From the NCBI RefSeq assembly GCF_000485595.1, contig NW_014578606.1, positions 21,885 to 63,500 of the forward strand: DNA of 41,616 nt, in the 5' to 3' direction. The DNA comes from Priapulus caudatus (Eukaryota > Priapulida > Priapulimorpha > Priapulimorphida > Priapulidae). The notes under the pieces were generated by a model, which made no database searches, was not told the origin of the DNA, and saw only the letters and a program-made list of their open reading frames with translations. Of the stretch, positions 16,927-39,962 are shown piece after piece (the stretch's first letter is position 1; each line of letters starts with the position of its first letter). A program made the translations under genes and the position numbers.

Positions 16927-17202
16927 ATGGCGTTTAGCAACAAGTGTATGTTCTTCGATGGTTATTGTATACAGTTGCTATCATTGCTGCTCATAGGTTT
17001 CCTGTCGATTGCTACCGCATTGCACATCGAAGCTTACAACGTAGATACATTTCAGGAAGAATATGCGTTGCCAGATCTGCCATTTGGCGATGATGCGTTA
17101 GAACCGTATATCGATGCGGCTACTGTCAAAGTTCACCACCGAGGCCACCACGCCGCCTATACTAGTAAACTCAACACTGCGCTACAGGCAATGCTAAAAG
17201 AG
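16927..17202 (+). CDS. Fe/Mn superoxide dismutase, exon 1 (signal peptide and first metal ligand)
   Basis: Codons 1-92, ATG in good context (AAAATGG) and ending AAAAGAG|GTTAGT in phase 0. Residues about 12-32 (YCIQLLSLLLIGFLSIATAL) form a hydrophobic core with a likely cleavage near Ala31, so this is a secretory signal peptide, not a mitochondrial presequence. Residues 47-92 match the N-terminal hairpin of Fe/Mn SOD: ALPDLPF, ALEPYIDAATV, then VKVHHRGHHAAY, where His70 is the first metal ligand and Tyr78 the gateway tyrosine. The enzyme converts superoxide to hydrogen peroxide and oxygen. An earlier in-frame Met (16840) would place 29 residues before the signal peptide, so 16927 is preferred. 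Together with the C-terminal HDEL in exon 5, the protein should act in the ER lumen. Confidence 0.92.
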
Positions 17203-17535
17203 GTTAGTTCGTGTTGCGGCTAGCCCGACCGCGAATTTTTTTTTCTACACATCAATTGGTCTCCTCTCAGGACCTCTGATTGGCTGCTTTGATTTGACCA
17301 CACCATAGATAGTGTTTGGGATACCATACTCCGTAGATAGTATATAACCCGAGTTGGTTTATTGTTAGTGTTACACTGTTAGGACTTAGGGTTAGGGTTG
17401 AGGTTACGATTTTTGCATCATTATTACGGATATAGTCTGATGCGGAAGTTGAAATGCGTAGTCCAATGGATCAAGCCCAATGGATGTAACGTGTAGGAAA
17501 AAAAAATTTGCAGCCCGACCAGGCTGCAAGAAGAC
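17203..17535. other. SOD intron 1, first part
   Basis: Begins with the GTTAGT donor. No feature stands out; a short GGGTTAGGGTT stretch at about 17387 is too brief to be telomeric. Confidence 0.6.
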
Positions 17536-17538
17536 TAA

Positions 17539-17985
17539 TGCTAGCCGCACACTATCCGATTTTGCACTGTACACAGCACTAAGCCCTCGCACACTATACG
17601 GCCCGCTCCCGATCGATCGGGAGGGCCCCGCACACTGTCCGACTCAAAGTTGGCGCAAACCATGGCACTCTCGTCGCGTTCCAAGCGGATTTGGCGTGTA
17701 CTAAGGGTCGGGAGTGTTTTCCCGCCATGTTTACCGAATGCGGTTCCCATAGCGCTGCTCTGTGATGGGTCAATTTTCTTCAGCGCTCGCCGATCGGGTC
17801 GGATGGCCACGCACACTATCCGAGTCGCGTCGTAAGCCCTCGCACACTATCCGCTCCCGATTCAAAATTCGAATCGGGCCAAAAAAACCTCGGGCCAAAC
17901 TTAAGCCTCCCGATACAAACTTAAGCTTCCCGATACAAACTTAAGCCTCCCGATCACTCTCGGGTCGGATAGTGTGCGACTAGCA
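17539..17985. mobile_element. 447-bp MITE with TAA target duplication, in SOD intron 1
   Basis: TAA at 17536-17538 and 17986-17988 flank termini TGCTAGCCGCACACTATCCG and, reversed, TGCTAGTCGCACACTATCCG. The motif CGCACACTATCCG recurs several times inside, in both orientations, and an AAACTTAAGC(C/T)TCCCGATAC unit is tandemly repeated near the right end (17897-17950). No coding capacity. The duplication and the CACAC-bearing ends group it with the TAA elements at 7156, 14208 and 22929. Confidence 0.8.
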
Positions 17986-17989
17986 TAAC

Positions 17990-18810
17990 CCCCCTCGTTT
18001 TCGATGTATGACCCTGCCCGGGGCGCGAGTATTTTTTTCCCAGTCGACATAGAATTTAGCGCCTTCTGATTGGCTGCTTCGATTTGCTTTGCCTTTGACA
18101 AGAGAATAAACTTTTCAGCAATATTTTTAGAAGGTCCGATGAAAGATCTGGAAGGTCCAAATATGTAACGTTTGTTTGGCTAATAGATCGTTTGGTAACA
18201 GTGGGTCCTTTTTTTGATACAAAACTAAACGTAAACAAGCTCGTTTTTGCCCTCGTTTGATACATGTGTCGTCTGCAGGCATTCCGAGTTACTCGCACGA
18301 GCGACGAGTTACTTCCAGTATGCTGAAACTACGCGTGCATTCGCGTTACAACTTCCGTTATAAACAACTATGCTACTAACGTTGCAGCATACGCTATCAG
18401 TATGTGTAATTTCGATCAGATTTTTGGTACATTTGACTCTTTAATATATTTGGTATGTTTCATCGTGAATATTAAATATGGCACTATAGATGTTGACAGT
18501 GACCAATAATCGATCTACTTTTGCTTTATTTCTTTGCAATTTGCAATGGTTTAATGATGTTTTATTTGATGAAAGTGGGGTTTTGTAAATTATTGAAATT
18601 GCGAAGGTCCAAGCATGAAATCGGCAGGTCCCGGACCTCGGACTTGCCCTATTTTCAGCCCCTGAAACTGTAGAATAGTTTTTCCGTTTCTTCAAACTTA
18701 TACCCCATACATACAGACTGCAAAATTTGATCCCACATCAAACTCGTCCGGGCCAGGCCTGTGCCTTAATTTGCAGGTGCGCGATAAATCGCAGCGTACA
18801 GACACAATTT
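17990..18810. other. SOD intron 1, middle part
   Basis: No exon recognised. The sequence CTGATTGGCTGCTT(C/T)GATTTG near 18066 repeats one near 17275 on the other side of the MITE, suggesting a local duplication. Confidence 0.45.
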
Positions 18811-18824
18811 GTTGAACAGCGCTA

Positions 18825-19198: not shown

Positions 19199-19208
19199 AA
19201 CAGCGCTA

Positions 19209-19590
19209 AGTTAACATGGGTTGACTGCACATGCTCAGTTTAGCTTGTTCTGTTTCTCAGCAGAAAACTATATACTTTTATGTGACCCAAATAAGGCTAT
19301 GCGAATGCGTATTGTGAAATTTAACCCGGGCCTGTCACCAGATTGCGTACGCACACATTTCCGCGCTTGCTAACTTAGCACGGGCTGACTTGGCATATGC
19401 TTCTGAGCGGGCCTGGTCCACCTCTATTCGCGGGGCTAACTTAGTCCGGACTAGCGCGTATAATTAGCATGGCATACTATGTACACACTTAGTTTGATAC
19501 AGGTTCAAATTTGCAGTCTGTACGAGGTATTAATGTGACGATTTCGAACAATAATCCCAACCTTTCTCATATTTTCCCAACTATAACAAT
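19209..19590. other. SOD intron 1, last part
   Basis: No exon, RNA gene or mobile element end seen. CTAACTTAGC/CTAACTTAGT motifs recur at about 19370-19440. Confidence 0.4.
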
Positions 19591-19594
19591 ACTT

Positions 19595-19702
19595 AGTGAT
19601 ATTGCTTGCGAAACTTGTGTCTAAAGTAGGTCTAAGATGTCTTAGAACACTCGTACATGTATTGTTACTTTTACCAAAAAACAAAAAAAACAATGGAGGA
19701 GG
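19595..19702 (+). CDS. Superoxide dismutase, exon 2 (3' end firm, 5' end uncertain)
   Basis: The exon ends AACAATGGAGGAGG|GTATGT, encoding N-N-G-G plus two bases of a third Gly, and joins in frame with the next exon to give NNGGG-YLNHAFYW, the block before the second metal ligand in Fe/Mn SODs. Upstream the same frame reads ILLAKLVSKVGLRCLRTLV, roughly the expected helix, but then a Lys/Asn run caused by poly(A)-rich sequence. No acceptor in the phase demanded by exon 1 (phase 0) was found. Either the 5' boundary lies elsewhere, another small exon exists, or the A-rich run contains sequencing indels. Confidence 0.6.
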
Positions 19703-19798: not shown

Positions 19799-19868
19799 GT
19801 ACCTCAACCATGCATTTTATTGGACAGTACTGGCACCAAACCCTAATAATGAATATCGACACCCAGAG
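19799..19868 (+). CDS. Superoxide dismutase, exon 3 (second metal-ligand histidine)
   Basis: After an acceptor TTTCCATTCAAG|G the frame reads YLNHAFYWTVLAPNPNNE and then YRHPE, 23 codons. In Fe/Mn SODs the motif G-G-x-x-N-H-x-x-x-W-x-x-L-x-P surrounds the second metal ligand, here the His of LNHA, followed by the active-site aromatic residue and Trp. The intron before it is only 96 bp. The exon must end in phase 0 after HPE to join exon 4 (GKIAED...), but the next bases are ATAATATT instead of a GT donor: one G-to-A change from GTAATATT. Confidence 0.85.
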
Positions 19869-19962
19869 ATAATATTTATAATAATTTTTTGATTCTATTT
19901 TAAATAAGATACCACCCAATTTGTTTGTCACAGCAAACAGTATAACTGATAGTAATAATACC

Positions 19963-20766
19963 AGGAGTGTATAATATAGAAGAGTATGACTCGCTCGAAA
20001 CACACAAAATTTAACATTTCCATGCCCTAGTTTACTTATGATTTATTACCTGAAACACAATAATAAAGATCGACATCACATGCATTGTAGATCCAACTTG
20101 CCCTCACACTTTACCTTGTATCAATATCTCTTCTGATTATATAGACTAAAATTGTAGTTATAGCTTTGAACATCAGACATGGTTTTAGTTAAGTGGCCAT
20201 CGTTTCCGCCCGATGCAAGTAAACAATTGGCAGCTCGCGGTGATAACGCTGTTGACGGGGTTCCGTAGGGATTCGCAGCTCGCAAATTAGTAGCAAGAGT
20301 ACATCGTAAAAACTTCCAAAATGTCGCCAAAACAAAAACTTCTTATGAGGGATTATTTTATATATAACTATGTCATATGACATCTGTTTATCTGCACTCG
20401 CAGCCGTGGCGCGGGCCAGAGCCAGCGGTCAGAGCCCGGCACTAATTTGCGAGTTGCAAATCTCTGCCAAACCCCGTCAACAGCGTTATCACTGTGAGCT
20501 GCCAATTGTTTACTTGCATCAGGCGGATACGATGGCCACTTGACTAGGTGAATGACTAAAACCATGTCTGACGTTCGAAGTTATAACTACGTAATAAGAA
20601 GGGGTATCGATACAAGGTGAAGTGTGAGGGCAAGTTGGATGTACAACGCTACTTGTGATATAATTATTATTGGGCTTCACGTAATAAATCATAGGTAAAC
20701 TAGGGCATGGAAATGTTGAATTTTGTGTGTTTCGAGCGAGTCATACTCCTGTATATTATACACTCC
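19963..20766. mobile_element. 804-bp fold-back element of the AGGAGT family, in a SOD intron
   Basis: Left end AGGAGTGTATAATATAGA; right end read backwards AGGAGTGTATAATATAC. The two halves are inverted copies of each other over nearly the whole length: the CGAGCGAGTC/GACTCGCTCG, CCATGCCCTAG/CTAGGGCATGG and CGGTGATAACGCTG blocks each appear in both arms, centred near 20355. Flanks ATAATAC are shared (left within AATAATACC, right within GATAATACT), fitting a 9-bp duplication with two mismatches. Arms have diverged by scattered changes. No coding capacity. Confidence 0.85.
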
Positions 20767-20948
20767 TGATAATACTAGTTGAAATTTTTTGAAAACTACC
20801 TAGTTAACTATCAGGGGTTGATGTGAACAGAAATCTGGAGTTAATTACCTCATGTTTACTGCCAGATGTCCTGATGTGACATCAGCATGAGTATTTCTCA
20901 CAACCTTGAAATTCTTCCACACATCACCATATATCCAAAATAATTTCT

Positions 20949-20970
20949 TAAACAGTATTTAATGCCCCAA
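20949..20970. repeat. 22-bp sequence shared with 32689-32710 (probable assembly junction)
   Basis: TAAACAGTATTTAATGCCCC followed by AA is identical at both places. Here it is followed by the 3' inverted repeat of the transposon; at 32689 it is followed by the SOD exon 4 region. The last bases (CCAA) also match the inner start of the transposon's 3' repeat at 37700, so this is where two versions of the locus diverge. Confidence 0.8.
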
Positions 20971-21622
20971 CTGAAGACGGTTAATTCCTAATTAATGTGT
21001 CAGTGTCATTGACAGGAAGAAAACAATGTGACATTTACTTGTTTTCAACCTTGTAAGTGATAAAGTAACAACAAAATGAGATATCGGGAATTCCTGATTT
21101 TATGTTTTTTTTGCAGATAGGGTTAATCAGCCATGTAGCATTAAAATATGCAAATCAAACATCAATATTCATACAGCTGACATCCTTACGAATCAAATGA
21201 GACCAGATTTGTTTTGTTATAATATGGGGGAGGAGTACTGCATCAAAACTTAGGATTGGAAAATGGCAAAAGGGGTAAAACCCCAATTTTGGGGCTATTA
21301 AGGGGCCCAAACCCCATTGAAGGGGTTAAAACCCAAAGCTATTAATTGTTATTAGCAGAAAGGAATTAATGTGATATAACATGTTTTCAGTCTTTTAACG
21401 TGCCAAATAACAATTATATCTGATATTCCAAAATTAACATTTTTTATGGGTTTTTGCAAAAAGGGGTTAATTTGCCATGTTTTAATTAGAATCTGACTGA
21501 AAACATTGTTTTTCATGAAGGAGACATCCTAACAAATCCAACGATACCTTATTTGCCTTGTTCTAAAGTGGGGGGGTACATCCTTAAATAAGGCCCTGTT
21601 TGGGCCCGCGTCGCTCCACTAA
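20971..21622. mobile_element. 3' terminal inverted repeat of the long-TIR transposon, copy 1
   Basis: Matches 37704-38343 almost base for base with scattered one-base indels, and ends in the same GTCGCTCCACTAA. The rest of the transposon is missing on its left side; a corrupted version of that part appears after the N gap (about 28050-31380). Confidence 0.85.
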
Positions 21623-21797
21623 ATGTCTGATGGAGATGTTTTTTCAGTGTTTTCAAGGCTGCATTACACTGTTCACAAAACCCTAAGAAGTAATTACAGC
21701 TCTGTTGAGATATACCCATTAATCGAATCGAGGCGATCGGTGAAAGCATGAAACATTACGCACATGCATATAACTCTACACTTGTCTCACTATGTAG

Positions 21798-22054
21798 GAT
21801 ATGTTGTGGCCTCTGCGCTGATTTTAACATCGGACACGGCTCTCACTTAATGATAGCGACTACCGCCAACCAGGACTCCCCTCTCTCTGAGGGACTTCAC
21901 CAATTCTGGCATCGATCTATGGGAGCATGCGTACTACCTGAAGCCACCAGAAATGTCGAGCTGCCTACATCGACGATGTGGGCGTGTTGTTAGCTGGGAT
22001 GCTGTAGCTCAGCTGACAAGTGTGGTCAAGAGGAACATGCACGACGAACTGTGA
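21798..22054 (+). pseudogene. Superoxide dismutase exon 5, copy 1 (frame broken by indels)
   Basis: Same acceptor (CACTATGTAG|GATATG) and same end, including the HDEL codons and TGA, as the intact exon at 38518-38777. It is 257 instead of 260 bp and has several one- or two-base insertions and deletions (for example ATGTTGTGGCC for ATGTGTGGC), so no frame reads through. The indels are scattered and mostly single-base, as uncorrected long-read sequence would show; genuine decay is possible. Its position before exon 4 copy 1 is wrong for a working gene. Confidence 0.85.
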
Positions 22055-22375
22055 ACGCGCTTCGGCACAATTTGGCTAATTTCCTATCTATGTCATAACC
22101 CCATCTTATACTGTACACTGTCGTTGTGTGATGTTTGCTGAATTGCTAACAGTTGCCGCAGCCATATTGCCGTTATTCAGCCAGCTTTCCAACCATCAGG
22201 TCCCTTGCTAGATTGCTTTGATTTGCTAATAGGCACTGCATTCAGTTCTTGGCAGTGCAAAGCGAGTTTGTGTATTTAAATTTATCCCACAGCTACATTG
22301 CAGGACAATGATTAAGAGAAATCAACGTGTGTTTACTCGCTCTGCCGTGGTGCAGTAGCACCGGTACAATGGACT

Positions 22376-22460
22376 CAGAGAAACTTTCAATTACACTAAA
22401 TCTAGGTAACATCACCATAATGGTGATGTTACCTAGATTAGTGTAATTGAAAGTTCTCTG
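22376..22460. repeat. Near-perfect 42-bp-arm hairpin, copy 1
   Basis: Starts CAGAGAAACTTTCAATTACA and ends with its reverse complement; same hairpin as 39091-39175, with one inserted A and one missing T. GACTC flanks both sides. Confidence 0.85.
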
Positions 22461-22881
22461 ACTCACTAATCCAATGGGAGAGATGCAACAGATAGCAGAT
22501 CATAATTGGTTTTATAAACAGTTTTGATATATAAGATAAGAATGAATTCATTTGGTGACATGCACGAGCATGACCACACGTTGGCAGTGAGGACTGATTC
22601 ACAAGGTGAGACAGTATGGTATTCAACTGGTTTAGCTTTTATGGTGCTATTATTGTGCAACCAAGTTAGTGTTAGCAAAAAAGTTTCCTGTAATAACGCT
22701 GTATTAAGAGAAAACTTGTTAGCGCGCAAAAGCGGTTATCCTAGATCAGACAATCTGCGTTGTGAGTTGTTGCTAGTTATTGTATTGTACGCGTTAGAGA
22801 CTAGATATCAGGCTAGCACGCACGCACTCACGCACGCAGGCCGCATTTCATTGTCAATATTCGTTTGCTGCTGGTATGATC

Positions 22882-22926
22882 AGGAGTGTATAATAATTAT
22901 ATTATTGTGTTTTTTTAGACACTCCT
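22882..22926. mobile_element. 45-bp AGGAGT-family mini-palindrome, copy 1
   Basis: AGGAGTGTATAATAA...TAGACACTCCT with TATGAT in the left flank and again after the adjacent inserted MITE. The second copy lies at 39594-39637. Confidence 0.65.
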
Positions 22927-22928
22927 AA

Positions 22929-23284
22929 AGGGCCGGACACACCAGGCGATGCCATCGCCCGACGCCATCGGCCGATGGCATCGCGCAGTCGTGGACACAC
23001 CAGGCGATTTCATCGGCGATGCCATCGCCCATGGCATCGCGCAGTCGTGGACACCCAGGCGATTTCATCGGCGATGGCATGCGCCGATGGCATCAGTATC
23101 ATTGAACAACTCTGATTGGCTGATGAAATGCTAGAAATCGGCGATGTTATCGCGGTCGCGGACACACAGGCCGATGGCATCGGGCGATGCCATCGCGCGA
23201 CGATTGATGACACACCAGGCGATTTCACGCCGATGCCATCGGCCGATGGCATCGGCCGATGCATCGCCTGGTGTGTCCGGCCCT
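22929..23284. mobile_element. 356-bp MITE with TAA target duplication, present only in copy 1
   Basis: Termini AGGGCCGGACACACCAGGCG and, reversed, AGGGCCGGACACACCAGGCG are identical. TAA stands at 22926-22928 and 23285-23287. The second copy of the locus has the empty site with a single TAA (after CACTCC, at 39637-39639). The interior is made of CGATGGCATCG/CGATGCCATCG palindromic blocks and repeated GTGGACACACCAGGCGAT units. No coding capacity; a PIF/Harbinger-type non-autonomous element is the best fit. Confidence 0.92.
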
Positions 23285-23467
23285 TAATATGATGGCATAG
23301 AAAATGTGATTCCAGCACATGAGAACAACGTATATCGATCGGTTCGTGCCGAAAGTGACAAATATATTTATCGGCTGTCGGTGTTTTTCCTATGAAAGCG
23401 TGTAACGACACAACTTTTATGCACTATGTGTGTGCATGCGCGCGCGTGTGTGTGTATAATATATATC

Positions 23468-23587
23468 AGGAGTAGATAATAGGGATTATTACTTATTATT
23501 CTATAGTAATTTTATAAATTCTAATTTTAATTCGAATAAATTCAATAAATCGAATTCTAATATATAAATTCCCTATTATCTACTCCT
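23468..23587. mobile_element. 120-bp AGGAGT-family palindromic MITE, copy 1
   Basis: AGGAGTAGATAATAGGGA at the left is answered by TCCCTATTATCTACTCCT at the right; the AT-rich centre includes TTCGAATAAATTC-type palindromes. Flanked on both sides by ATATATAT, so the target duplication cannot be delimited. Confidence 0.75.
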
Positions 23588-23619
23588 GATATATATGTAT
23601 ATAATATATATATGCATAT

Positions 23620-23651
<32 letters not shown>

Positions 23652-23689
23652 ATATGAAATTCCGTTTCCCAAATGCAAGTTAAAATACA

Positions 23690-23784
23690 CAGAAAATATT
23701 GAAATAACAACAACTGGTACACTAATTATGCACTGTGCATAATGAGTGCATATTATGTCTCCAGTTGTTGTCATTTCAATATTT

Positions 23785-23786
<2 letters not shown>
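23690..23786. repeat. Hairpin with ATTGAAATAACAACAACTGG arms, copy 1
   Basis: Left arm ATTGAAATAACAACAACTGG is answered by CCAGTTGTTGTCATTTCAAT. The centre TTATGCACTGTGCATAATGA is also palindromic. (TA)n runs border it on both sides (23586-23650, 23786-23825). Confidence 0.8.
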
Positions 23787-23827
<41 letters not shown>

Positions 23828-25450
23828 TGTGTGTTGTGTGTCTGTTACGTCACCAAAATAGATGATACTAGGTCTATATAAGTCTATGTTTGATAGCGCG
23901 TGAAGGTTTTTAGAGCTTGTGTGTTTAGACAGAGCAGTACGTGCAGTAACAACGTGTGGCATGATACGCCTGCAAAGTGATTCACATAAAAATATATACG
24001 ACTTTGTTTGTGCTTATATGAACTTGACAAAAAAGTTATATATGCGAACGACTACGGCAATGAATATTATATAATTAAATGTCCTTACCGTGAACGCACA
24101 TGCACGCAAGCTAACAAGCCATCACAGGTCCAGTGCAGTGCTAATTAATTAAAAAGCGCCAGTGTTCACAGGTACCGTTGACGGATCCAACATGGGAGAC
24201 GGAACCATCGGGGCCATGGTTGCGTCTCGGAATATATACGTACCAGCAAACGACTGAAAAAACGTGAAGACGTCATTCATGAGCATTTCAGAACTCCATT
24301 TCACTTGCGCTGCTTTCAAAATTTAATGGATGACTATAGGCTTCAAATTGCCGTCACACATACGATATATACCGGACCCAAATAAGTTGTTACATCACTT
24401 CACAGACCGCATCGTGCTCTCTCCGTTTGTCCATTCCTCGATCCTCCAATGTGTACGGTATATACGACATGGAGTGAATGCATGTAGCACAGTAGGTGTG
24501 GTTTAGGTGTCTTGTGTTTTGCCTGGCTGTCCGAAAGGATGGATGTTGTAGGGTTGTCTTGGTTATCGGTCTGATGAAGCAAAAGACGGCGAAAATAGTA
24601 CATCAGTTTCATTTCGGCGCGTGAGAAAATGCGCGCAGAAGTAATGCAATTTAACGGAAAAACGGCAATGACCACTAACTTGCCAAGTACGGTCTGAATT
24701 ACGGTCAAGCTGAAATTATTTTTGAGCGGTAAATGTTAAATATTGAGCCTGCCATAAAATTTATCCAAGTAACGCACCCTGGTACCTCGAATATAAAACA
24801 GTTGCATGCCAAGTTTACTTACTTAAATTTGCACCTGCGACTCCCATTATGGAAATATAAAAGCAGACCATAGAGATATTGTTAGGTTAATGCGCTCCGG
24901 TTATAGCGTGGTATTCTTCCTTCATTGGACAGGGTTCCACTGGGACATACTCGCCATTGCTTGTCTGAATATGGACGGAGCAGCATATATGCAGCATATG
25001 CATAGAGGTTATTATGCATAATGTTACGTCCTGGTGTGAGAAACTATCTGCCGCCGCTACACCATAGCGCGCGTATATATTTAGAAATTAAAATATAGTA
25101 TACAAACACTGTTACAATGAAAACATTTTCTTCAGGAGTTGTATATAAAGTCCAGTTTCTAATCGGTGTGATTTTCACCGAATCGGCGAAAACTGACGAG
25201 TTATGCCCTTGTTCACAACAGGCACTTGAGCGTTTCAATAAATATAATGCTAAATAAATACGAACTTATTTACTACCAAAGTTTAATGTTTCTATACTCT
25301 CTTTCACCTATTATTGCGACAATTTCCTGTAAATGCGTCGTCAAATGCTCATCTACAACAAACACTGGCTGCCGCCATTACATTGCTGCCGCTGCACACT
25401 GACATATAAATATATAGATATAAATAATAGATATAAATATATGACAAAAT

Positions 25451-25475
25451 NNNNNNNNNNNNNNNNNNNNNNNNN
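25451..25475. other. Assembly gap (25 N)
   Basis: Exactly 25 unknown bases. Left of it is downstream DNA of SOD copy 1; right of it begins a second version of the SOD exon 4 region. The fixed size suggests a nominal gap, not a measured one. Confidence 1.
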
Positions 25476-25478
25476 GCT

Positions 25479-28050
25479 CAATTGCAGTCATCCAACTGCT
25501 ATTGTATGCAAATTATTGTTACCTTGGTTTTTAACTGTGGATAGCATATTCTGTCATTTTTGCTGCTGGCATTCTCTTCTGAAGAAAATACCAATTATCT
25601 CTAGGGTAAAATAGCAGCAGGATATAATGAACACATTTGGGAACTTCTCAATTTTTCAAGAATATATTTACGCGATGTGTTCTACTTCGTTCAGGTATGA
25701 ATATTACATTGATTCCATTATATATTACATCAAGAGCTTAAAATAATCTTAGCATGTCGTCACATTCAATGCCATTAATAACATAATGTAATATAGAAAA
25801 TAATTAATTTAAATTAAAGAGGTGTAACATAATATATATTAATAATATAATGTTGTGTATGTAACATAACATAGGATGACATAAGTTCAGGAGTGTATAA
25901 ATGTAGATAACATAACATAGCTCTGATACATACTATATATAATTAAATTAATTTCGTGATATAATATAATAACATATATGTGACCCTGCTCTAGCATAAT
26001 ACGACTAAGTCACAAGTCATTGTTTTGAGTCATGAGCACGCACACATGTCAATGCTGAAAATGGCCTACCTAGACAAAAATAAGATTTTTACAAAAAAGT
26101 TTCTAAGTGCATATTTAATCCGATATATAGGTTCAGATATCTCTAGATTTTATGGGCCTTCTTTTTATGGGCCTTGTATTGCTCATCCCCGACTGGGCCC
26201 CTTACCCGGAACGCTTTATCTTAAAAGCGGCATATTCCGCGAATTTAAGTCGGTTACGATCTTCAAATTGCTGTAGATCGGTCAATTCTTTAATATAGCC
26301 AAATATTATATATGACCATTTTAAAGGTAATTAAAATGATCTATTCAAGATATGCACATAACCAATTTGTAGAATTTCCTTACTTAATCCTGGTTTTGGT
26401 GGAGCGGGTCACATTAAATAATTTACTATATGGGTACTTTGCAGAGAACATCGTGTGCTATGAAATAAAAACCAATATTGTTGATTAAAATTAATGTTGC
26501 TTGCTGTGAGGTGCAGCACCTATCAAGAATTTCACGCCACTAATGGCTCTCACAATGTGCTGTAAGAAAGTTTAACTAGTAGATGAGGGCAGTATAATAT
26601 ATCAAATCTAGTAAAACAATTTTATATTTAAAATTAAAATTAAAAGTAAAATAGTTCAAAACGCCAGCAACAGTCTACCACTGATCACGACTCTAACCCA
26701 ACTCTCTCACTTCTCGCTCAACCATCAACTATCTCTCTATTCCTAGAAACCATCTTCACACTACATTTAAAGGGATATATACTACACCCTAGAATTTTAT
26801 GGTATATTCTGATAGGAAGGGGCATATATAATAGTATGTATCTACAAACTTCTATAATTATCATTCACCAATTGTCCAAAACAACAGTGAGTTTCAAAAT
26901 CGCTTATTTTTGGCTGCTGAATGACACCCTGCCAATTGTGCTGCCACCCTGGAGAAGTTGCACTTTTTCATTATTTTGCACGTTACAGACTGAGAGCTAA
27001 TCACAAAAGTACTATTTATACCTAACTGCTATTTACAGAACTATTTTTATTTCAGGACAAACTCCATCCACATAACTGAATCTAAAAGTTTTTTACAAGA
27101 ATTGCAATCCTTAAGTTCTTATCTTAAATTAGTAAATTAAGAAACAACCGATTTCACAATTACGATACGTAACGTTGAAGTAGATGGCTAGTACTAGTTG
27201 TGTCCCATTGTCATTGTTGAAGAACGATACAGCTGTTACTTTTTTAAACAAGAAAAAATATTTCTAATCAATATTGAACAATGAAATTTTTATTATGCAG
27301 TGTAATTTGAACCTAGAGTCATGTAATTAATTCCTTTAAATTGACTACATCGCAAATTTTCTATGGTGTTATTATTTTTGTAAAATTAAAATTTTTGTTG
27401 CAATTTGTACATGAAAAGTAAGTACTACGGTACTAAATGTATCCTCAAAGTCTTACCTGATAAGATTGTTTCTCAACAAGTTAAAAATCCAAAAACCTGG
27501 GCGATTTGATATATTGATCACGAATTAAATGCTTGCTGATGGCCTATGTATGCAGTCACAAATGTTTGTTTACATCGAACAGAATAGCAAAATAGGAAGT
27601 ATAATGCAGCATTTAACCATAAAAAGTGAACAGAATCCTTCTATTTTGTGAAAGGTGGTGCCACCGGTGAATTTTATCCGGACTAAAAGAGTTCCGCGGC
27701 CATCAGTGTCCAGAAAATCGGTGGTGTACCTGTACTAACATAGCAGTATATATAGTATGCATATCTGTATATATGTTATGTTAGATATGTATACTTTGAA
27801 TAGATAGTTCGTGGTTATATATGCTTAGGATGCTAGAGGAACACCCATACACAATTATATGTTATACTTATAGCATGAAGTGTAATATGTTTCTGTTACT
27901 TGGCCAACACAAGTAATTTTAAACGATATCACCAAGTCCTATCCTACACATAACATAATCATAAAACATATGTCCGTAAATATTTCATCATGTCTCAAGT
28001 TGGACTACCTGCCCGCATTTACTAGATGAGCGAAACCTTTGTGGTCGTTA
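25479..28050 (+). repeat. Copy 1 of the SOD exon 4 region and following intron (duplicate of 32708-35383)
   Basis: Collinear with 32708-35383 over its whole length. Differences are mostly one-base insertions and deletions. Only copy 2 has the 69-bp duplication at 34845-34975. Order relative to exon 5 copy 1 is inverted compared with the intact arrangement. Confidence 0.92.
25605..25694 (+). pseudogene. Superoxide dismutase exon 4, copy 1 (with indels)
   Basis: Acceptor ATCTCTAG|GGTAAAATAGCAG and donor TTCAG|GTATGA as in copy 2, but 90 bp instead of the expected 88. Extra bases (GCAGCAGGA, TTTGGGAA, CAATTTTTC, ACGCGATG) and a missing G in ACTTCGTTCAG break the frame. Where copy 2 has an extra C (GTTCCTAC), this copy reads GTTCTAC, which restores the family sequence there. 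Confidence 0.85.
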
Positions 28051-31000
28051 TCAATGAGCCGAATTGATTTTTAGGGGGGAGTTGCGTTATGTTTGGGGCT
28101 TGAGACCGTAGAAGATTTTTACGCTTTCTACCGACTCGTATCTCCCCACTGTTTGGAGGATCATTGGTCCAAATGATTTGAATTATTTTCGTTTGGTATT
28201 TCGTTTTTTTTTTTAGTTGATTTGTTTTTTTTTTTTTTTCGTCTTTATTGAATAATTACTCAATGTTTTTTATCTATGTTTCAGGATTCTAATTGGTAGA
28301 AACTAATGCCAATTAACCCGCTGTTTGTTGCCAAAGTTGGGTTGTGAAGTTTTGGGTGTGTATATTAGTGTCTTATGAATTTGTAATTGGTTTCTATTTT
28401 GGCCATACTCTTTTTATAAATGGGATGCTGAAAATACTATGTTGAATATCATGTTTAATTTCTCCTTTCTGCTAAGTACTAGCTCACGATTTATTCGTTT
28501 TTTTGTTTTCCGTTTGTTTAACCATCTTCAAGAGTGCGGGGTTGGGCTGCGCTTTAGAGTAGGCTCGCCAAAGATCGGCTTCTGTTGGTTTTTGACCCGC
28601 TTGTTTTGCTTCATTGTCCAATCCTAATTTGAGTGTGGCTGTTGTGTGTGGAGGTGTGAGCCCCTCCCCCCATATTATAACTATTCGCTAAGATGTCAGC
28701 TGTGTTATAGGTGTTGTGTGATATGTTGATGTTTGATTTGCATATTTGTTTAATGAAATTACTGAATTTCAGTATAGTAAGAGTGGTTTTTGGTGTTTTA
28801 ATATTTATTTGGGTTTTGTGTTTGCCCTAAGCTGATGGCCAATTAACACTCTTTTTTTGAAAAAATGTTGCCGTCTTAGTTGATTGTTACAGTGTGGTGT
28901 TTGATTTTGTGTTTGGGTGGTTGGTTGATTTCGTATGTTTTTTTTCATATTATTTTTTTTTTTTATTTTTGGTGTCGACTCTGTAGAATAAGGACTGAAG
29001 ACATGTTTTGTATTAGTATCAGCTTGAAGTGCCTTTCTGCCTAAGGACACTCACATATATTTGGGGTTACCCACTTCAATGAGTTTTGGGCCCGGGATTA
29101 ATCCAGAGAAAAATTTGGCTCGGTGTTTTTGACTCCTTTTGGTGGCGCATTTTTTCTAGATTTTCTTTCGTAATTGCTTTTGTATTGCGGGTAGTATTCC
29201 CTCCCTATATTTTTTTTAGTGATATATTCAATTAACAAAGTGGGCTGGTTGTTCTTCATTTTTGATTTTCGTTAATGTGGAGTGTCAGTTCTCGTTTATT
29301 TTTGATATATTGAGTGTGTTTTTTATGATTTGATGATTTTAATGCCTAACATGCTGATTAACCCCTTATTGCCCAAAAAAAACATAAATCAGGAATTTCC
29401 CCCTATATATCTTTCATTTTTGGTTTTTGGTTACTTTTTTTGAGGTGCACTTACGAAGGGTTGGATATGGAACAAGTGGTGGTAAATTTTGGTCACTTGT
29501 TTTTCTTCCTGTCAAGCTGATCTCACGTGAGTCTTTCTTCATTAGATTTAGGGGATTTAACCCTCTTTCGGATGTTGGATCCAGATAACGGGCTATTCCC
29601 CCTTCAATTTTTGTTCAATGACGGTGGTTCCAGTGAGCGGAAACCACAAATCAGTATCTTGCCAAAAAGCTGTTTTTGAAGCAAACACGTCATAATACAT
29701 TCTTTTATTGGTTTTTTCTCTTTTATTCATGTGTTGAATACCACGACATCAATCACAGTCTGCTGCATACCTCATTGATGACATTGGCCAAGTGTTTTGG
29801 GGGGGTGTGTTCAGGGCCCTAAATGAGATATTTGCAGTGGTGTTCAGTGGAGTTACGTTCAAGCAAACTTTGAAAGGTGGTCTGACTTGAAGTCCAATTT
29901 GCCAACAAGGGCTAGTCTCGCTTCATGTTTCATCCTGCTCAGTATATCTGCCGACAATGCGACAAGCAGTATCCTGCTGCAGAGAAATCGGGTAGTACTG
30001 GCAGGTGCATTTGAAGATGGAGAAGTCGTCAAAGTCTGAATGAATGTGAGCGCACTGTGTGCTCTAGTCTTGACTGTTGGGGGGTTGTACAAGCTACACA
30101 ACGAGGAAGCGCAATATCCTCGGCTCCCGCTATATCAGATCACGCAATGTGATTACCGGGCCTGTCGCCAATCTGGAGGCTCCTATTGCACGACGATAAT
30201 CATGCCTGCTCGACCGACTATACGATGTTTACTGTGTTGCTGATTACATTAGCTGGCCAGCAGGGAAGCGTGCGTGGCGATGAGTGTATATGTGCACTGC
30301 CTGGCACTCAGCGGAAGTTTGTCACAACTACCGGAATCCCACGTATCTTCATGCTCAAAATGTGTGTTCGGTGGATGCTTGTGTGTACCAAACCACAATC
30401 AGCACCAATACTTCAGGCCCAACAGCAGCATTGTGCATATTCACTAGCGGTTGTTGTGTTATCGTGTGCTGCCGCATGCATCTGTCGGGATGCCTAACAC
30501 CCGCACAATGCTCTATACAAGACTTGCGTGATGTTAATATCGAACGTGCCGGCTAATGAGTCTATCGGCTGTCTACACCAAATAATGCAGAGTGTGGGTT
30601 TCAGGCGCTGCTTTACAGGCCCCAGCTCTCTCGCATGCTCCATGTGATCAGATGTGTTTTTGTCTCCCGCTACCTGCCCTACGTTTCTTTACAGACTACT
30701 GCATGAGGGCGACGTTCAGTCTTCGCTTGCATTCTCTTGCTCTGTGGGCTCATTATGACTCGGCTATTTTGGGTGTGGTGTCCCTCATACTAAAAAACAA
30801 AAATCTTAAGTTCAGCTCCAACCTAGCTTCGCCTTTCGTACTCGCCCACGAATCGATTGCGGTCACGTGACCAAGTGTCTGCCCATCCAATACTCGCTGT
30901 CGACAGAGCGCATGCTTTCGACCACACACATGATATGCACTGGCCCTTGATACTTGAGATGCGATACGGGTTCGCTCCTCGGTGTGCGGTTGGGTCAGAG

Positions 31001-31380
31001 ACACCGTACACAAACCCTCGCTGAGCATTTGGCACCAGTTCCCGGCCATGCGCTTGGTGCCTAAATTAGCCACTACCAACGCTCGTAGATACCTCTCGTA
31101 CCACTTGTACAGTAATCGAATCTGGCACTCAGCTGACGGTTAGAGAACTATTAAGAGGCTCTGATTTGTACTGCACATCGACAAGATTGTTGTGTTTTCT
31201 TGGGGGGGCGGTGCAGCATGTGTGTGCCCTGTGTTGCGCTGACTGCGACAGAAAATGCCCAAGTGTCGGTTATTGACTGGACTTTTGTCATCAGTGTGTT
31301 GATATCTGTGGTGGTTTTGATTTGGGTGATGTGTAGGGCAATGTGGGTGTTGTGTGTGAGAATCGATGGTTTGGGAAATA
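28050..31380 (+). pseudogene. Insertion-riddled copy of the long-TIR transposon (5' repeat and gene)
   Basis: Follows 35384-37595 in order: TIR fragments at 28150-29420, then the gene region (ATAACGGGCTATTCCCCCTTC at about 29586; GAAGATGGAGAAGTCGTCAA at about 30013), to the VRISG region near 31365. It is about 1.5 times longer than its counterpart because short random insertions, many of T or G, occur every few bases. No frame survives beyond about 100 codons. The pattern is unlike mutational decay, where substitutions dominate, and looks like uncorrected noisy long-read sequence. Confidence 0.8.
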
Positions 31381-31411
31381 TATATTTATATGTCAGTGTG
31401 CAGCGGCAGCA

Positions 31412-31519
31412 ATGGCGGCAGCCAGTGTTTGTTGTAGTCTAGATGAGCATTTGGACGGCATTTACAGGAAATTGTCGGCAATAATAGGTGAAAGAGAGTA
31501 CAGAAACATTAAGACTTTG
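31412..31519 (+). CDS. Possible first coding exon of an unrecognised gene (weak)
   Basis: ATGGCGGCAGCC in good start context opens 36 codons (MAAASVCCSLDEHLDGIYRK and 16 more) up to a possible donor TTTG|GTAGTA. The peptide looks like ordinary soluble protein and is not low-complexity, but I recognise no family and no further exon. It lies just after the corrupted transposon copy, where sequence accuracy is doubtful. Confidence 0.2.
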
Positions 31520-32688: not shown

Positions 32689-32836
32689 TAAACAGTATTT
32701 AATGCCCCAATTGCAGTCATTCCAACTGCTATTGTATGCAAATTATTGTTACCTTTGGTTTTTAACTGTGGATAGCATATTCTGTCATTTTGCTGCTGGC
32801 ATTCTCTTTCTGAAGAAAATACCAATTTATCTCTAG

Positions 32837-32925
32837 GGTAAAATAGCAGAGGATATAATGAACACATTTGGAAACTTCTCAATTTTCAAGAATATATTTA
32901 CGGATGTGTTCCTACTTCGGTTCAG
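32837..32925 (+). CDS. Superoxide dismutase, exon 4, copy 2
   Basis: Acceptor TTATCTCTAG|GGT in phase 0, donor GGTTCAG|GTATGA. It reads GKIAEDIMNTFGNFSIFKNI then FTDVF, matching the Fe/Mn SOD segment 'G.L...I...FGSF..FK..F...A'. After FTDVF an extra C (GTTCCTAC) shifts the frame. Without it the exon is 88 bp and ends Y-F-G-S plus one base, which with exon 5 gives the family's FGSGY-V-W-L. Copy 1 lacks this extra C, so the shift is probably a sequencing error. Joins exon 3 (…RHPE) in phase 0. Confidence 0.88.
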
Positions 32926-33124
32926 GTATGAATATTACATTGATTCCATTAATATATTACATCAAGAGCTTAAAATAATCTTAGCATGTCGTCACATTCA
33001 ATGCATTAATAACATAATGTAATATAGAATAATAATATAATTTAAATTAAAAGAGTGTAACATAATATAATATAGTATAATATAATGTTGTGTAATGTAA
33101 CATAACATAGGATGACATAAGTTC

Positions 33125-33165
33125 AGGAGTGTATAATGTAGATAACATAACATAGCTCCTGATAA
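33125..33165. repeat. Short AGGAGT-type palindrome, copy 2
   Basis: AGGAGTGTATAATGTAG...CTAGCTCCTGA-like arrangement (observed AACATAGCTCCTGATAAC). Copy 1 counterpart at about 25890-25930. Probably a decayed member of the AGGAGT family. Confidence 0.4.
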
Positions 33166-34844
33166 CATACTATAATATAATTAAATTAAATTTCGTATAT
33201 AATATAATAACATATATGTGACCTGCTCTAGCATAATACGGACTAAGTCACAAGTCATTGTTTTGAGTAATGAGCACGCACACATGTCAATGCTGAAAAT
33301 GGCCTACCTGGACAAAAATAAGATTTTTACAAAAATAAGTTTCTAAGTGCATATTTAATCCGAATATATAGGTTCAGATATCTCTAGATTATTATGGGCC
33401 TTTTTTTTATGGGCCTTGTATTGCTCATCCCCGACTGGGCCCCTTACCCGGAACGCTTTATCTTAAAAGCGGCATATTCCGGAATAAGTCGGTTACCGAT
33501 CTTCAAATTGCTGTAGATCGGTCAATTCTTTAGATATAGCCAAATATTATATATTGACCATTTTAAAGGTAATTAAATGATCTATTCAGATATGCACATA
33601 ACTCAATTTGTAGAATTTCCTACTTAATCCTGGTTTTGGTGGAGCGGGTCACATATAAATAATTTACTATATGGGTACTTTGCAGAGAACATCGTGTGCC
33701 ATGAAATAAAAACCAATATTGTTGATTAAAATTAATGTTGCTTGCTGTGAGGTGCAGCACCTATCAAGAATTTCACGCCACTAATGGCTCTCACAATGTG
33801 CTGTAAAGAAAGTTTAACCTAGTAGATGAGGGCAGTATAATATATCAAATCTAGTAAAACAATTTTATATTTAAAATTAAAATTAAAAGTAAAATATTTC
33901 AAAACGCACAGCAACAGTCTACCACTGATCACGACTCTAACCAACTCTCTCACTTCTCGCTCAACCATCAACTATCTCTCTATTCCTAGAAACCATCTTC
34001 ACACTACATTTAAAGGGATATATACTACACCCTAGAATTTTATGGTATATTCTGATAGGAAGGGCATATATAATAGTATGTATCTACAAACTTCTATAAT
34101 TATTCATTCACAATTGTCCCAAAACAACAGTGAGTTTCAAAATCGTTATTTTTGGCTGCTGAAATGACACCCTGCAATTGTGCTGCCACCCTGGAGAAGT
34201 TGCACTTTTTCCAATTATTTTGCACGTTACAGACTGAGGACTAATCACAAAAGTGCAATTATATTTATACCTAACTGCTATTTAACAGAACTATTTTTAT
34301 TTCAGGACAAACTCATCCACATAACTGAATCTAAAAGTTTTTTACAAGATATTGCAATCCTTAAGTTCTTATCTTAAATTAGTAAATTAAGAAACAACCG
34401 ATTCACAATTACGATACGTAACGTTGAAAGTAGATGGGCTAGTACTAGTAGTGGTCCCATTGTCATTGTAAGAAACGATACAGCTGTTACTTTTAAAACA
34501 GAAAAAAATATTTCTAATCAATATTGAACAATGAAATTTTTATGTAGCGTAATTTGAACCTAGAGTCATGTAATTAATCCCTTTAAATTGACTACATCGC
34601 AAATTTTCTATGGTGTATATTATTTTGTAAAATGTAAAAATTTTGTTGCAATTTTTTTACATGAAAAGTAAGTACTAACGGTACTAAATGTATCCTCAAA
34701 TTCTTACCTGATAAGATTGTTTCTCAACAAGTTAAAAATCCAAAAAACCTGGGCGATTTGATATATTGATCACGACATTAAATGCTTGCTATGGCCTATG
34801 TATGAGTCACAAATGTTTGTTTACATCGAACAGAATAGCAAAAT

Positions 34845-34975
34845 AGGAAGTATAATGCAGCAATTTAACCATAAAAAGTGAACAGAATCACTTCTATTTT
34901 GTGAAAAAGCGACAGGAAGTATAATGCAGCAATTTAACCATAAAAAGTGAACAGAATCACTTCTATTTTGTGAAA
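34845..34975. repeat. 69-bp tandem duplication unique to copy 2
   Basis: AGGAAGTATAATGCAGCAAT... up to ...CTTCTATTTTGTGAAA occurs at 34845 and again at 34914. Copy 1 has it once (about 27594-27654). Confidence 0.85.
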
Positions 34976-35383
34976 GGTGGTGGCCACCCGGTGAATTTTA
35001 TCCGGACTAAAAGAGGTTCCGGGCCATCAGTGTCCAGAAAATCGGTGGTGTACCTGTACTAACATAGATGATAGAGTATATATGTATGCATATCTGTATA
35101 TATGTTTATGTTAGATATGTATACTTTGAATAGATATGTTCGTGGTTATATATGCTTAGGATGCTAGAGGAACACCCATACACAATTATGATGTTATACT
35201 TATAGCATGAAGTGTAATATGTTTCTGTTATTTGTGCCAACACAAGTAATTTTAACACGATATCACACAGTCCTATCCTACACATAACACAACATAAAAC
35301 AATGTTTCGTAAATATTTCATCATGTCTCAAGTTGGACTACCGCCCGCATTACTAGAGGGAAACTTTGTCGTTATCAAAGCAA

Positions 35384-36359
35384 TTAGTGGAGCGACTGAG
35401 AGCCAAAAATTTAGCTCGACCCCTCCCCACTTTAGAACAAGGCAAATGAGATATCGTTGGATTCGTTAGGATGTCTGCTTTATGAAAAACAATGTTTTAC
35501 AGTCAGATTCTAATTAAAACATGGCCAATTAACCCCTTTTTTGCAAAATGTGAATTTTGGAATATCAGAATAATTGTTATTTTGGCACCTTAAAAGACTG
35601 AAAACATGTTAATATCACATTAATTCCTTTCTGCTAAGGACACTCACATTATTTCGGGTTTTAACCCACTTCAATGGGGTTTTGGGCTCCTTAATACCCC
35701 AAAATCGGGGGTTTTACCCCTTTTTGCCATTTTCCAATCCTAAGTTTTGATGCAGTACCCCTCCCCCATATTATAACTATTCGTAAGGATGTCAGCTGTA
35801 TGAATATTGATGTTTGATTTGCATATTTTAATGCTAACATGGCCAATTAACCCTTTTTTGAAAAAACCCATAAAAATGTGAATTTTGGAATATCAGAATA
35901 ATTCTTATTTTGGCACCTTAAAAGACTGAAAACATGTTAATATCACATTAATTCCTTTTTGCTAAGGACACTCACATTATTTGGGGTTTTAACCCACTTC
36001 AATGGAGTTTTGGGCCCATTAATACCCAAAAATTGGGTGTTTTACCCCTTTTTGCCATTTTTCAATCCTAAGTTTTGATGCAGTACCCCTCCCCCATATT
36101 ATAACAAAACAAATCTGGTCTCATTTGATTCGTAAGGATGTCAGCTGTATGAATATTGATGTTTGATTTGCATATTTTAATGCTAACATGGCTGATTAAC
36201 CCCCTATTTGCCAAAAAAAACATAAAATCAGGAATTTCCCAATATCTCATTTTGTTGTTACTTTATCACTTACAAGGTTGAAAACAAGTAAATGTCACAT
36301 TGTTTTCTTCCTGTCAAGGACACTGACACATTAATTAGGGATTAACCCTCTTCAGTTGG
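35384..36359. repeat. Left terminal inverted repeat with internal tandem duplication
   Basis: Contains two copies of a ~327-bp block (35440-35780 and 35780-36105) bearing GACTGAAAACATGTTAATAT, GACACTCACATTATTT and CCCACTTCAATG. The right repeat has this block once. Confidence 0.85.
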
Positions 36360-36387
36360 ATCCAAATAACGGGCTATTCCCCCTTCA

Positions 36388-37597
36388 ATGTTCAATGACG
36401 ATGGTTCCATGAGGAAAACCAACAAATCAGATCTTGCCAAAAAGCTTGAAGCAAACACGGATGAAATTCTTATTGTTTCTCATCAGAATACCACGACATC
36501 ATCACAGTCTGCTGCATACCTCATTGATGACATGGCAATGTGTCAGGCCCTAAATGAGAATCATTTCAAGACGTTCAACAAACTTGGAAAGGTGGTTCTG
36601 AACTTGAAGTCCAATGCCAACAAGGCTAGTCTCGCTTCATTCATCTGTCAGTATATCTGCGACAATGGACAAGATATCCTGCCTGCAGAGAAATCGGTAG
36701 TACTGTCAGGTGGATTTGAAGATGGAGAAGTCGTCAAAGTTCTGAATGAAGTGGGTGTGTCTAGTCTTGAGGGGTTGTACAGCACACAAGAGGAAGCGGA
36801 TACTCGCCTCGTATTACACGCAATAACGTTGTCGAGAGGCTATTATCCACGGATAATCATTTGCTGTGACGACACATGTTCTGGTGTTGCTGATATATTA
36901 CTGGAGCAGGGAAGCGCTGGCCGATGAAGTGTATATGCATGCTGGACACTCAGGGAAGTTTGTCACAAAGGAACGATTCATACCTGTACACCACATCAGT
37001 ACCAAACTTGGCAAAGCAGCATGCATGTCCTTACCGGCTGCGCATGCTCTGTCGGGATGTAACACGACAAGTGCTCTATACAGACTTGGAAAGCGAACGG
37101 CTTATTCAGCTCTCACCAAAAATGCAGAGGCCTTACAGAGTCTGGACTCATTCCAAGATGTCCCTACTTTCTTAGATACTGCAAGGCGATTTGTTCTCCT
37201 CATGCATGGTAAAAAAAACAAAAATCTTAGTTCACTCAATGAGCTTCGTTTCGTACTCGCCACAACCACTGACAAGCCTGCATCAATACTGCCGCTGACA
37301 GAGGATGCTTTCGCACAACATGTATTGCATGCCCAATACCAAGTTGCAGTGTGGTGTCAGAGACACGTCACAAAACCTGTGAGCATGGACCCAGTTGGCC
37401 ATGGTTGGCATGTAAATGCAAAAGGTGAACTCTGTCCAACATTGTACCAGAATGAATCGGCACCAGCTGAGGTTAGAGACATAACTCATTTGTACTGCAC
37501 AGACAAAGATTGTCGTGGACAGAAATGCCAGTGTGTTATTGCTGGACTTTTGTCATTTGTATCTGTGGTGGAGAATGTGAGAATCAGCGGGAGATAA
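36388..37597 (+). pseudogene. Transposon-borne PIN/FEN-like protein of the 'GCDTTS' family, split by a frame change
   Basis: Two overlapping frames: 36388-36927 and 36866-37597, changing at about 36876-36884. Frame 1 has FICQYICDNGQDIL, VVLSGGFEDG and EEADTRLVLHAI; frame 2 continues VLVLLIYYWSREA, HALSGCNTTSALYRLGKRTA and ends with a Cys cluster (CTDKDCRGQKCQC). Proteins with EEADTR, DTDVLVL and H-x-(L/F)-(S/T)-GCDTTSAF are common in cnidarian, mollusc and fish genomes, usually unnamed; EEADTR...DTDVL resembles the acidic core of PIN/FEN-type nucleases. Here two bases are missing exactly where the DTD motif should stand. The N-terminus also seems shortened: the stop TAA in ATCCAAATAACGG precedes the start. 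Role in transposition unknown. Confidence 0.75.
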
Positions 37598-37699
37598 GTG
37601 AGGTTGAAAATACAGATGAAGTCTGAGGTCATACGGACATGACGGTGTAAAAGGCAGTATGTTCAAACACTAACAATATTCTCAAAAGGTTATTTGGAG

Positions 37700-38343
37700 C
37701 CAACTGAAGACGGTTAATTCCTAATTAATGTGTCAGTGTCATTGACAGGAAGAAAACAATGTGACATTTACTTGTTTTCAACCTTGTAAATGATAAAGTA
37801 ACAACAAAATGAGATATCGGGAAATTCCTGATTTTATGTTTTTTTTGCAGATAGGGGGTTTAATCAGCCATGTTAGCATTAAAATATGCAAATCAAACAT
37901 CAATATTCATACAGCTGACATCCTTACGAATCAAATAAGACCAGATTTGTTTTGTTATAATATGGGGGAGGAGTACTGCATCAAAACTTAGGATTGGAAA
38001 ATGGCAAAAAGGGGTAAAACCCAAAACCCCATTGAAGTGGGTTAAAACCCAAAGCTATTAATTGTTATTAGCAGAAAGGAATTAATGTGATATTAACATG
38101 TTTTCAGTCTTTTAAGGTGCCAAAATAACAATTATTCTGATATTCCAAAATTAACATTTTTTATGGGTTTTTGCAAAAAAGGGGTTAATTTGCCATGTTT
38201 TAATTAGAATCTGACTGTAAAACATTGTTTTTCATGAAAGAGACATCCTAACAAATCCAACGATACCTTATTTGCCTTGTTCTAAAGTGGGGAGGGGTAA
38301 CTCCTTAAATAAGGTCCTGTTTGGGTCCCGGTCGCTCCACTAA
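37700..38343. repeat. Right terminal inverted repeat
   Basis: Reverse complement of 36359-36065 plus 35755-35384, with few mismatches. It ends 175 bp before SOD exon 5. Confidence 0.88.
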
Positions 38344-38517
38344 ATGTCTGATGGAGATGTTTTTTCAGTGTTTTCAAGGCTGCATTACACTGTTCACAAA
38401 ACCCTAAGAAGTAATTACAGCTCTGTTGAGATATACCCATTAATCGAATCGAGGCGATCGGTGAAAGCATGAAACATTACGCACATGCATATAACTTACA
38501 CTTGTCTCACTATGTAG

Positions 38518-38777
38518 GATATGTGTGGCTCTGCCGTGATTTTAACATCGGACACGGCTCTCACTTAATGATAGCGACTACCGCCAACCAGGACTCCCCT
38601 CTCTCTGAGGGACTTCACCCAATTCTGGGCATCGATCTATGGGAGCATGCGTACTACCTGAAGCACCAGAATGCTCGAGCTGCCTACATCGACGATTGGT
38701 GGCGTGTTGTTAGCTGGGATGCTGTAGCTCAGCTGGACAAGTGGTGGTCAAAGAGGAACATGCACGACGAACTGTGA
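38518..38777 (+). CDS. Superoxide dismutase, last exon (C-terminal domain, two metal ligands, HDEL)
   Basis: Acceptor CTCACTATGTAG|GA, phase 1, then 85 codons and TGA. It encodes [22 protein letters not shown], then [26 protein letters not shown], and ends RNMHDEL. D-x-W-E-H-A-Y is the Fe/Mn SOD signature, with Asp and His as third and fourth metal ligands. The Gln of ANQD in the C-terminal domain is the pattern of manganese enzymes. The final four residues HDEL are a KDEL-receptor retrieval signal, which with the signal peptide of exon 1 predicts an ER-lumen Mn-type SOD. Copy 1 (21798-22054) preserves the same ending despite indels. A poly(A) signal was not firmly identified. Confidence 0.93.
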
Positions 38778-39938: not shown

Positions 39939-39962
39939 GATATATATGTTATAATATATATA

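Follow-up and report, generated by a model that had tools for sequence, protein, structure and literature searches.

Results

The window, that is the whole stretch of 41,616 nucleotides of Priapulus caudatus DNA that was analysed, carries on its + strand the exons of a gene with both Fe/Mn superoxide dismutase (SOD) Pfam domains, Sod_Fe_N and Sod_Fe_C, the two halves being encoded by separate exons. Exon 1 (16927..17202) comprises 92 codons, matches Sod_Fe_N (E 4.6e-14) and ends at a GT donor (boundary AAAGAG/GTTAGT). It encodes a hydrophobic leader of about residues 1-31, with an 11-residue core from residue 18 (mean Kyte-Doolittle value 2.62), and the first SOD hairpin with the ligand His70; an in-frame ATG lies upstream of the exon start, at 16840. 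Of exon 2 only the 3' end is tentatively placed (19590..19702; NNGG, then G across the junction, with a GT donor), at a site that scored 20.6 in a frameshift-tolerant profile scan, where 30 shuffles reached 18.1 at most, and that reached an E value of 0.2 with the plain HMM; the rest of the exon was not found by translation, HMM, splice-site enumeration or the frameshift-tolerant scan. Exon 3 (19799..19868; family HMM E 4.4e-6) follows an AG acceptor, encodes LNHAFYW with the second ligand and is directly followed by AT in place of a GT donor. Two copies of exon 4 are present, both matching the family HMM weakly: copy 2 (32837..32925; E 0.024), which encodes GKIAEDIMNTFGNFSIFKNIFT between an AG acceptor and a GT donor, has its frame broken close to the 3' end, and copy 1 (25605..25694; E 1.1) is noisy and out of order in the window. 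Neither copy joins exon 5 in frame.

The last exon is likewise duplicated. Copy 2 (38518..38777) is open, encodes the C-terminal domain with the DLWEHAY ligands (Sod_Fe_C E 7.7e-23; family HMM E 3.6e-41) and ends in NMHDEL followed by TGA, with the HDEL codons at 38763-38774. The first-pass annotation had reported HDEL in both copies, and NMHDEL-stop is indeed read in copy 1 (21798..22054) as well, but this copy is frameshifted and does not form one open frame; relative to copy 2 it shows 21 substitutions and 6 small gaps in a stretch of about 266 bases. The assembly across the locus is duplicated and noisy, and no single intact gene with a complete open frame can be read from the window copy. 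Because the span contains duplicated blocks (20967-25440 recurring as 37700-41616, and 25476-28050 as 32705-35345) and a run of N at 25451-25475, the exon order within the window is in part an assembly artefact.

All four metal ligands that the first-pass annotation had named, three His and one Asp, were confirmed in the window exons. His70 of exon 1 corresponds to human H26, the LNHA His of exon 3 to H74, and the Asp and His of DLWEHAY to D159 and H163; equivalents of human Gln143, Tyr34, His30 and Glu162 are also present. The Mn-type outer-sphere Gln (human position 143) is Q in the window protein and in 59/59 of the relatives listed. Judged from these residues, the gene probably encodes a Mn-type Fe/Mn-SOD, for which manganese would be the presumed metal. 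The proteins P0001 and P0149 and the window exon matched NCBIfam SOD models with scores short of the curated cut-offs (in one case 153.8 bits where 363 are required). A profile built from 48 relatives gave bacterial Mn-SODs up to 244 bits compared with about 172-178 bits for human SOD2 chains, and the nearest PDB matches were bacterial Mn-SODs too, namely that of Bacillus subtilis (2rcv) by profile and a cyanobacterial membrane-bound enzyme (1gv3) by the fold of a chiton relative's model. In sequence, the window SOD appears to resemble bacterial Mn-SODs more closely than the human mitochondrial enzyme SOD2. In the predicted structure of one relative the C-terminal end is of low confidence and probably flexible.

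To the 59 relatives belong the rows with at least 274 bits in one profile search and at least 309 bits in another, drawn from the best 120 matches per search with about 8000 candidates scored each time. P0010, P0051, P0066 and the fragment P0252 (267 bits) were added, and P0132 (Albugo) as well as P0237, a protein of 554 aa with two SOD domains, were removed, both being outside rows in the tree. Since the scores dropped at the cut from 309 to 273 bits in one search and showed no gap in the other (274 to 269 bits), membership was finally checked by tree. The relatives form one clade of 60 rows (support 100/99, bootstrap not settled), set apart from 28 other SODs and from human mitochondrial SOD2, the one mitochondrial sequence in the tree. 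The window sequence itself joined P0001 weakly in a quick tree and was unplaced in a careful one. Several of the 59 relatives appear to be truncated or odd gene models.

The search of Fe/Mn-SODs for retrieval endings that had been proposed as a check separated the two groups: among the matches listed, [KHR][DE]EL ends 44/59 relatives and 0/239 other SODs, the latter mostly bacterial or unnamed, with the reservation that most sequences behind the search profiles carry the motif themselves (5/6 in A2, 15/15 in A3), which may favour relatives of that sort. By a home-made Kyte-Doolittle heuristic for hydrophobic leaders, also applied to exon 1 above, 42/59 relatives listed combine leader and motif, compared with none of the 239 other SODs listed, of which 37 have a leader alone. 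The earlier proposal of a Mn-type SOD with a signal peptide and HDEL is therefore supported by relatives that possess both ends. Relatives lacking the ending, which would have pointed to chance, are a minority among those listed, so that this check turned out largely in favour of the proposal, the strict motif being absent from 15/59: HDEF was found three times, HEEF twice, and HTEL, HHEL, HGEL, REDL, HSDF, RNSL, WSKL and NAKQ once each, and two Mytilus proteins extend beyond HDEL. In the right-justified tails of the relatives listed, entropy falls from 2.93-3.99 bits at the twelve preceding positions to 1.54, 1.71, 0.76 and 0.69 bits at the last four, and composition alone would produce the motif with a probability of about 1.1e-4. 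Given its distribution between relatives and other SODs listed, a chance origin of HDEL was ruled out. N-glycosylation sequons (46/59 relatives and 207/237 others) and cysteines (medians of 1 and 0, respectively) gave no support among the same matches.

Discussion

In our assessment, with a probability of about 0.8, the locus represents a SOD2X-type animal gene, encoding a secretory-pathway Mn-type SOD that is returned to the endoplasmic reticulum (ER) by means of HDEL. The signal peptide would direct the protein into the secretory pathway, the KDEL receptor would return it to the ER through the C-terminal HDEL, and in the ER lumen the enzyme would convert superoxide to hydrogen peroxide and oxygen. 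Soluble proteins that the KDEL receptor brings back to the ER carry two marks, a signal peptide and a C-terminal [KHR][DE]EL, and both are read in the window sequence. The metal, leader cleavage, receptor retrieval, ER residence and role of the protein are inferred. The first-pass annotation knew of no comparable animal enzyme, a claim overtaken by the description of SOD2X, an ER-type clade of animal MnSODs recognised from DeepLoc predictions (Hewitt and Degnan 2022; PMC9524095). According to that survey, SOD2X extends from sponges to chordates, has a signal peptide in many members and, like the window gene, contains both Pfam halves and is separate from mitochondrial SOD2. Since the survey distinguishes two main animal MnSOD clades and the clade recovered here is not SOD2, it would correspond to SOD2X, a correspondence drawn at the level of clades. 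In that survey as in the present analysis, the ER localisation is predicted.

A sea-cucumber enzyme of the same clade provides a further comparison. Ps-Mn-SOD of Paelopatides (P0149; 255 aa) has a signal peptide like the window protein but ends in HEEL instead of HDEL, and the recombinant protein is an active Mn-SOD with a Vmax of 9112 U/mg (PMC6410416). Its cDNA was amplified with primers at the mature N-terminus and, by our own reading of the codons, over the HEEL codons, so that in this relative the counterparts of exons 1 and 5 lie in one mRNA; the terms endoplasmic, extracellular and HEEL gave no match in the text of that paper. ER-targeted SOD1 constructs (PMC6819749) also place a SOD in the ER lumen, but these are engineered Cu/Zn enzymes.

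A Mn-SOD that is secreted, extracellular or vesicular, with retrieval being partial or cell-type-dependent and its main work done outside the ER, appears unlikely. In its favour, 5/18 SOD2X proteins were predicted to be extracellular by DeepLoc-2.0, compared with 10/18 predicted ER, and the conclusions of the survey call SOD2X "predominantly extracellular" (PMC9524095); moreover, the motif is weakened or lost in some relatives listed, such as those with HDEF, which gives poorer retention than HDEL (PMC7617889), or the extended Mytilus proteins. However, most relatives listed have kept the motif on an otherwise variable tail, and the window's own HDEL is the strong-binding form, with a Kd at the KDEL receptor of 0.24 uM compared with 1.94 uM for KDEL (PMC7617889). 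It is quite improbable that this copy of a SOD2X gene has become a pseudogene in decay and that its features are mere relics, even though exon 2 is mostly unread, AT follows exon 3, both exon 4 copies are out of frame, and copy 1 of exon 5 is frameshifted, with the exon 5 copies diverging somewhat more than their surroundings (21 substitutions over about 260 bases compared with 120 over about 3870). Exon 1 and copy 2 of exon 5 are open, and every ligand and HDEL are intact; furthermore, small gaps are also frequent in the non-coding duplicated blocks (58 in about 3.9 kb, compared with the 6 in about 266 bases of exon 5), so the frameshifting gaps are explained by assembly noise. The fold family and metal ligands are also shared with mitochondrial SOD2, and human SOD2 (1luv, 1n0j) has the same ligands, Gln143 and Tyr34, yet a mitochondrial SOD2 with unusual ends is highly improbable and was rejected: the profile scores favour bacterial Mn-SODs, the human enzyme, the one mitochondrial sequence in the tree and compared in its mature form, is outside the clade and without an ER leader or HDEL, and leader and retrieval motif occur together in most relatives listed.

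As the enzyme class has already been described, what is added to the SOD2X picture here is the return tag kept in many animal relatives. The main text of the survey contains none of the terms KDEL, HDEL and retention and ends on a predominantly extracellular enzyme, wavering between ER and extracellular on the basis of software prediction (PMC9524095), so that a conserved retrieval signal, as read from the sequences, is a useful refinement. Within the literature searched, which included few subscription journals and no preprint server, the term SOD2X occurred in one paper only, and a discussion of its retrieval motif was not found. A tetrapeptide conserved on a variable tail supplies a mechanism that can be tested by deleting four residues, which opens the question of enzymatic removal of superoxide in the ER lumen to experiments on sea urchins, anemones or sponges. 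We lean slightly towards the broader view that a dedicated ER-lumen SOD of bacterial-like sequence, retrieved by the KDEL receptor, is ancestral to animals and possibly their close unicellular kin. If so, lineages without SOD2X would have lost an enzymatic luminal step from superoxide to peroxide that serves oxidative folding and signalling. One of the proteins compared, P0122, bears a name that we take to be choanoflagellate-like.

Gene structure in the window

Exon 1 of the SOD gene (16927-17202) encodes a hydrophobic leader, as judged by a Kyte-Doolittle heuristic, ahead of the first SOD hairpin. A GT donor follows this exon. The second metal ligand lies in exon 3 (19799-19868), which is followed directly by AT, and the last exon (38518-38777, exon 5 copy 2) supplies the remaining two ligands and ends in NMHDEL-TGA. 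Pfam matches were obtained to Sod_Fe_N in exon 1 (4.6e-14) and to Sod_Fe_C in the last exon (7.7e-23). Alignment to human SOD2 demonstrated that all four metal ligands, H26 (His70 in the window), H74, D159 and H163, are kept, as are the Mn-type Gln143 and Tyr34, His30 and Glu162. The leader, the four ligands and the HDEL ending described in the first-pass annotation were therefore recovered, the last of these in exon 5 copy 2. A G-rich short repeat of the form GGGGGGTAATTGTCC (16150-16350) lies immediately upstream of the gene.

A complete SOD reading frame was not found in the window, since exon 2 is suggested by no more than its 3' end, AT follows exon 3, neither copy of exon 4 is in frame and exon 5 copy 1 carries a frameshift. 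Two pairs of duplicated blocks (20967-25440 with 37700-41616, and 25476-28050 with 32705-35345) are separated by an N run. In the first pair, 120 substitutions and 58 small gaps separate the two blocks across the approximately 3.9 kb compared; between the exon 5 copies there are 21 substitutions and 6 small gaps in about 266 bases. We read the blocks as two haplotypes placed one after the other in a noisy assembly, and exon 5 copy 1 as a poor stretch of it. A stretch ending TTTAATGCCCCAA is common to ~20.97 kb and ~32.71 kb, and in the gene exons 1, 2 and 3 (16.9-19.9 kb) are most plausibly followed by exon 4 (32.8 kb) and then exon 5 (38.5 kb).

A conserved putative retrieval signal

KDEL or HDEL endings occurred in 5 of the 120 matches listed in the first search (ranks 1, 10, 12, 51 and 66), and further relatives came from two profile searches, whose listed matches included Liolophura, Mizuhopecten, Ylistrum, Mytilus, Haliotis, Solemya, Owenia, Helobdella, Lineus, Actinostola, Rhopilema, Lytechinus, Diadema, Apostichopus, Paelopatides, Amphiura, Glandiceps, Ptychodera, Branchiostoma, Protopterus, Strigamia, Chamberlinius and Corticium. 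These genera cover molluscs, annelids, a nemertean, cnidarians, echinoderms, hemichordates, amphioxus, a lungfish, myriapods and a sponge. Among the matches listed, 44 of 59 relatives end in [KHR][DE]EL, 42 of them with a hydrophobic leader; two have the motif only, nine the leader only and six neither. The ending was found in none of the 239 other SODs listed, and a leader in 37 of these. In the right-justified tails of the relatives, entropy at the last four positions was 1.54, 1.71, 0.76 and 0.69 bits, compared to 2.93 to 3.99 bits at the twelve preceding positions, so that the C-terminus combines a variable linker with a conserved terminal tag.

The strict motif is absent in 15 of the 59 relatives listed, which have HDEF (n=3), HEEF (n=2) and single cases of HTEL, HHEL, HGEL, REDL, HSDF, RNSL, WSKL and NAKQ. 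The other two of the 15, both from Mytilus (P0134 and P0162), extend beyond HDEL to end in GHDELYLWF, which would hide the retrieval signal; either these proteins are secreted or their gene models are in error. Several of the exceptions other than HDEF may also be wrong gene models. According to PMC7617889, HDEF keeps receptor binding with poorer retention, and the Kd is 0.24 uM for HDEL versus 1.94 uM for KDEL.

Family position and ER reading

In an 89-row tree, in which bootstrap values had not settled and human SOD2 was the sole mitochondrial sequence, the 59 relatives and the window formed a single clade (support 100/99), to which neither human SOD2 nor any of the 28 other SODs belonged. 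When a profile built from 48 relatives was used, bacterial Mn-SODs scored up to 244 bits, compared to ~172-178 bits for human SOD2 chains. For the Liolophura relative, the predicted structure (mean pLDDT 91.7; 43 at the final residue) had its best PDB match in 1gv3, a cyanobacterial membrane-bound Mn-SOD. Taken together, the tree, profile scores and structural match make the enzyme look more like a bacterial-type Mn-SOD fitted with ER tags than like a re-targeted SOD2. Most mitochondrial SODs belong to a separate subfamily, SodFM5, according to PMC10172142.

The leader would bring the protein into the ER, the KDEL receptor would catch HDEL and return it, and the enzyme could then convert luminal superoxide to peroxide and oxygen. 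Peroxide is usable by luminal peroxidases. Established are the sequence features described here, and catalysis for the Paelopatides relative only: expressed without its signal peptide, this protein forms a dimer and is active as a Mn-SOD (Vmax 9112 U/mg; PMC6410416), and the reverse primer given there encodes, in our translation, PSKHEEL-stop, matching the Paelopatides sequence P0149.

The first-pass annotation knew of no animal enzyme combining these features; this novelty does not hold, as the animal MnSOD clade SOD2X, partly ER-predicted, was already published in 2022 (PMC9524095), and the window gene is most likely another SOD2X in a poor assembly. The conclusions of that study name SOD2X "another predominantly extracellular clade"; KDEL, HDEL or retention had no hit in the main text. 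What the present analysis adds is the conserved retrieval signal, which speaks for the ER reading rather than the extracellular one. The ER reading of the window SOD is well supported at the sequence level, and the signal makes it testable by removal of four residues.

Other features of the window

An inverted-repeat element at 35419-38298 has arms of 332 nt and 130 nt (95 percent complementary) and two more arm pairs (84-85 percent complementary); its overlapping open frames (36370-36927 and 36857-37597) gave no Pfam match. It is probably a transposon in the intron preceding the last SOD exon. The region 28051-31450, which poorly resembles 35345-37660 (1358 matches, 910 substitutions, many gaps), may be another copy of this element that has decayed or was poorly assembled. 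Nested, noncoding, MITE-like inverted repeats occupy 19953-20777 and 23055-23271. On the minus strand, an open frame with a hydrophobic start (2623-3057) matched Peripla_BP_6 (4e-05) and ANF_receptor (0.01), both below curated cut-offs, and may be where a receptor gene has its first exon.
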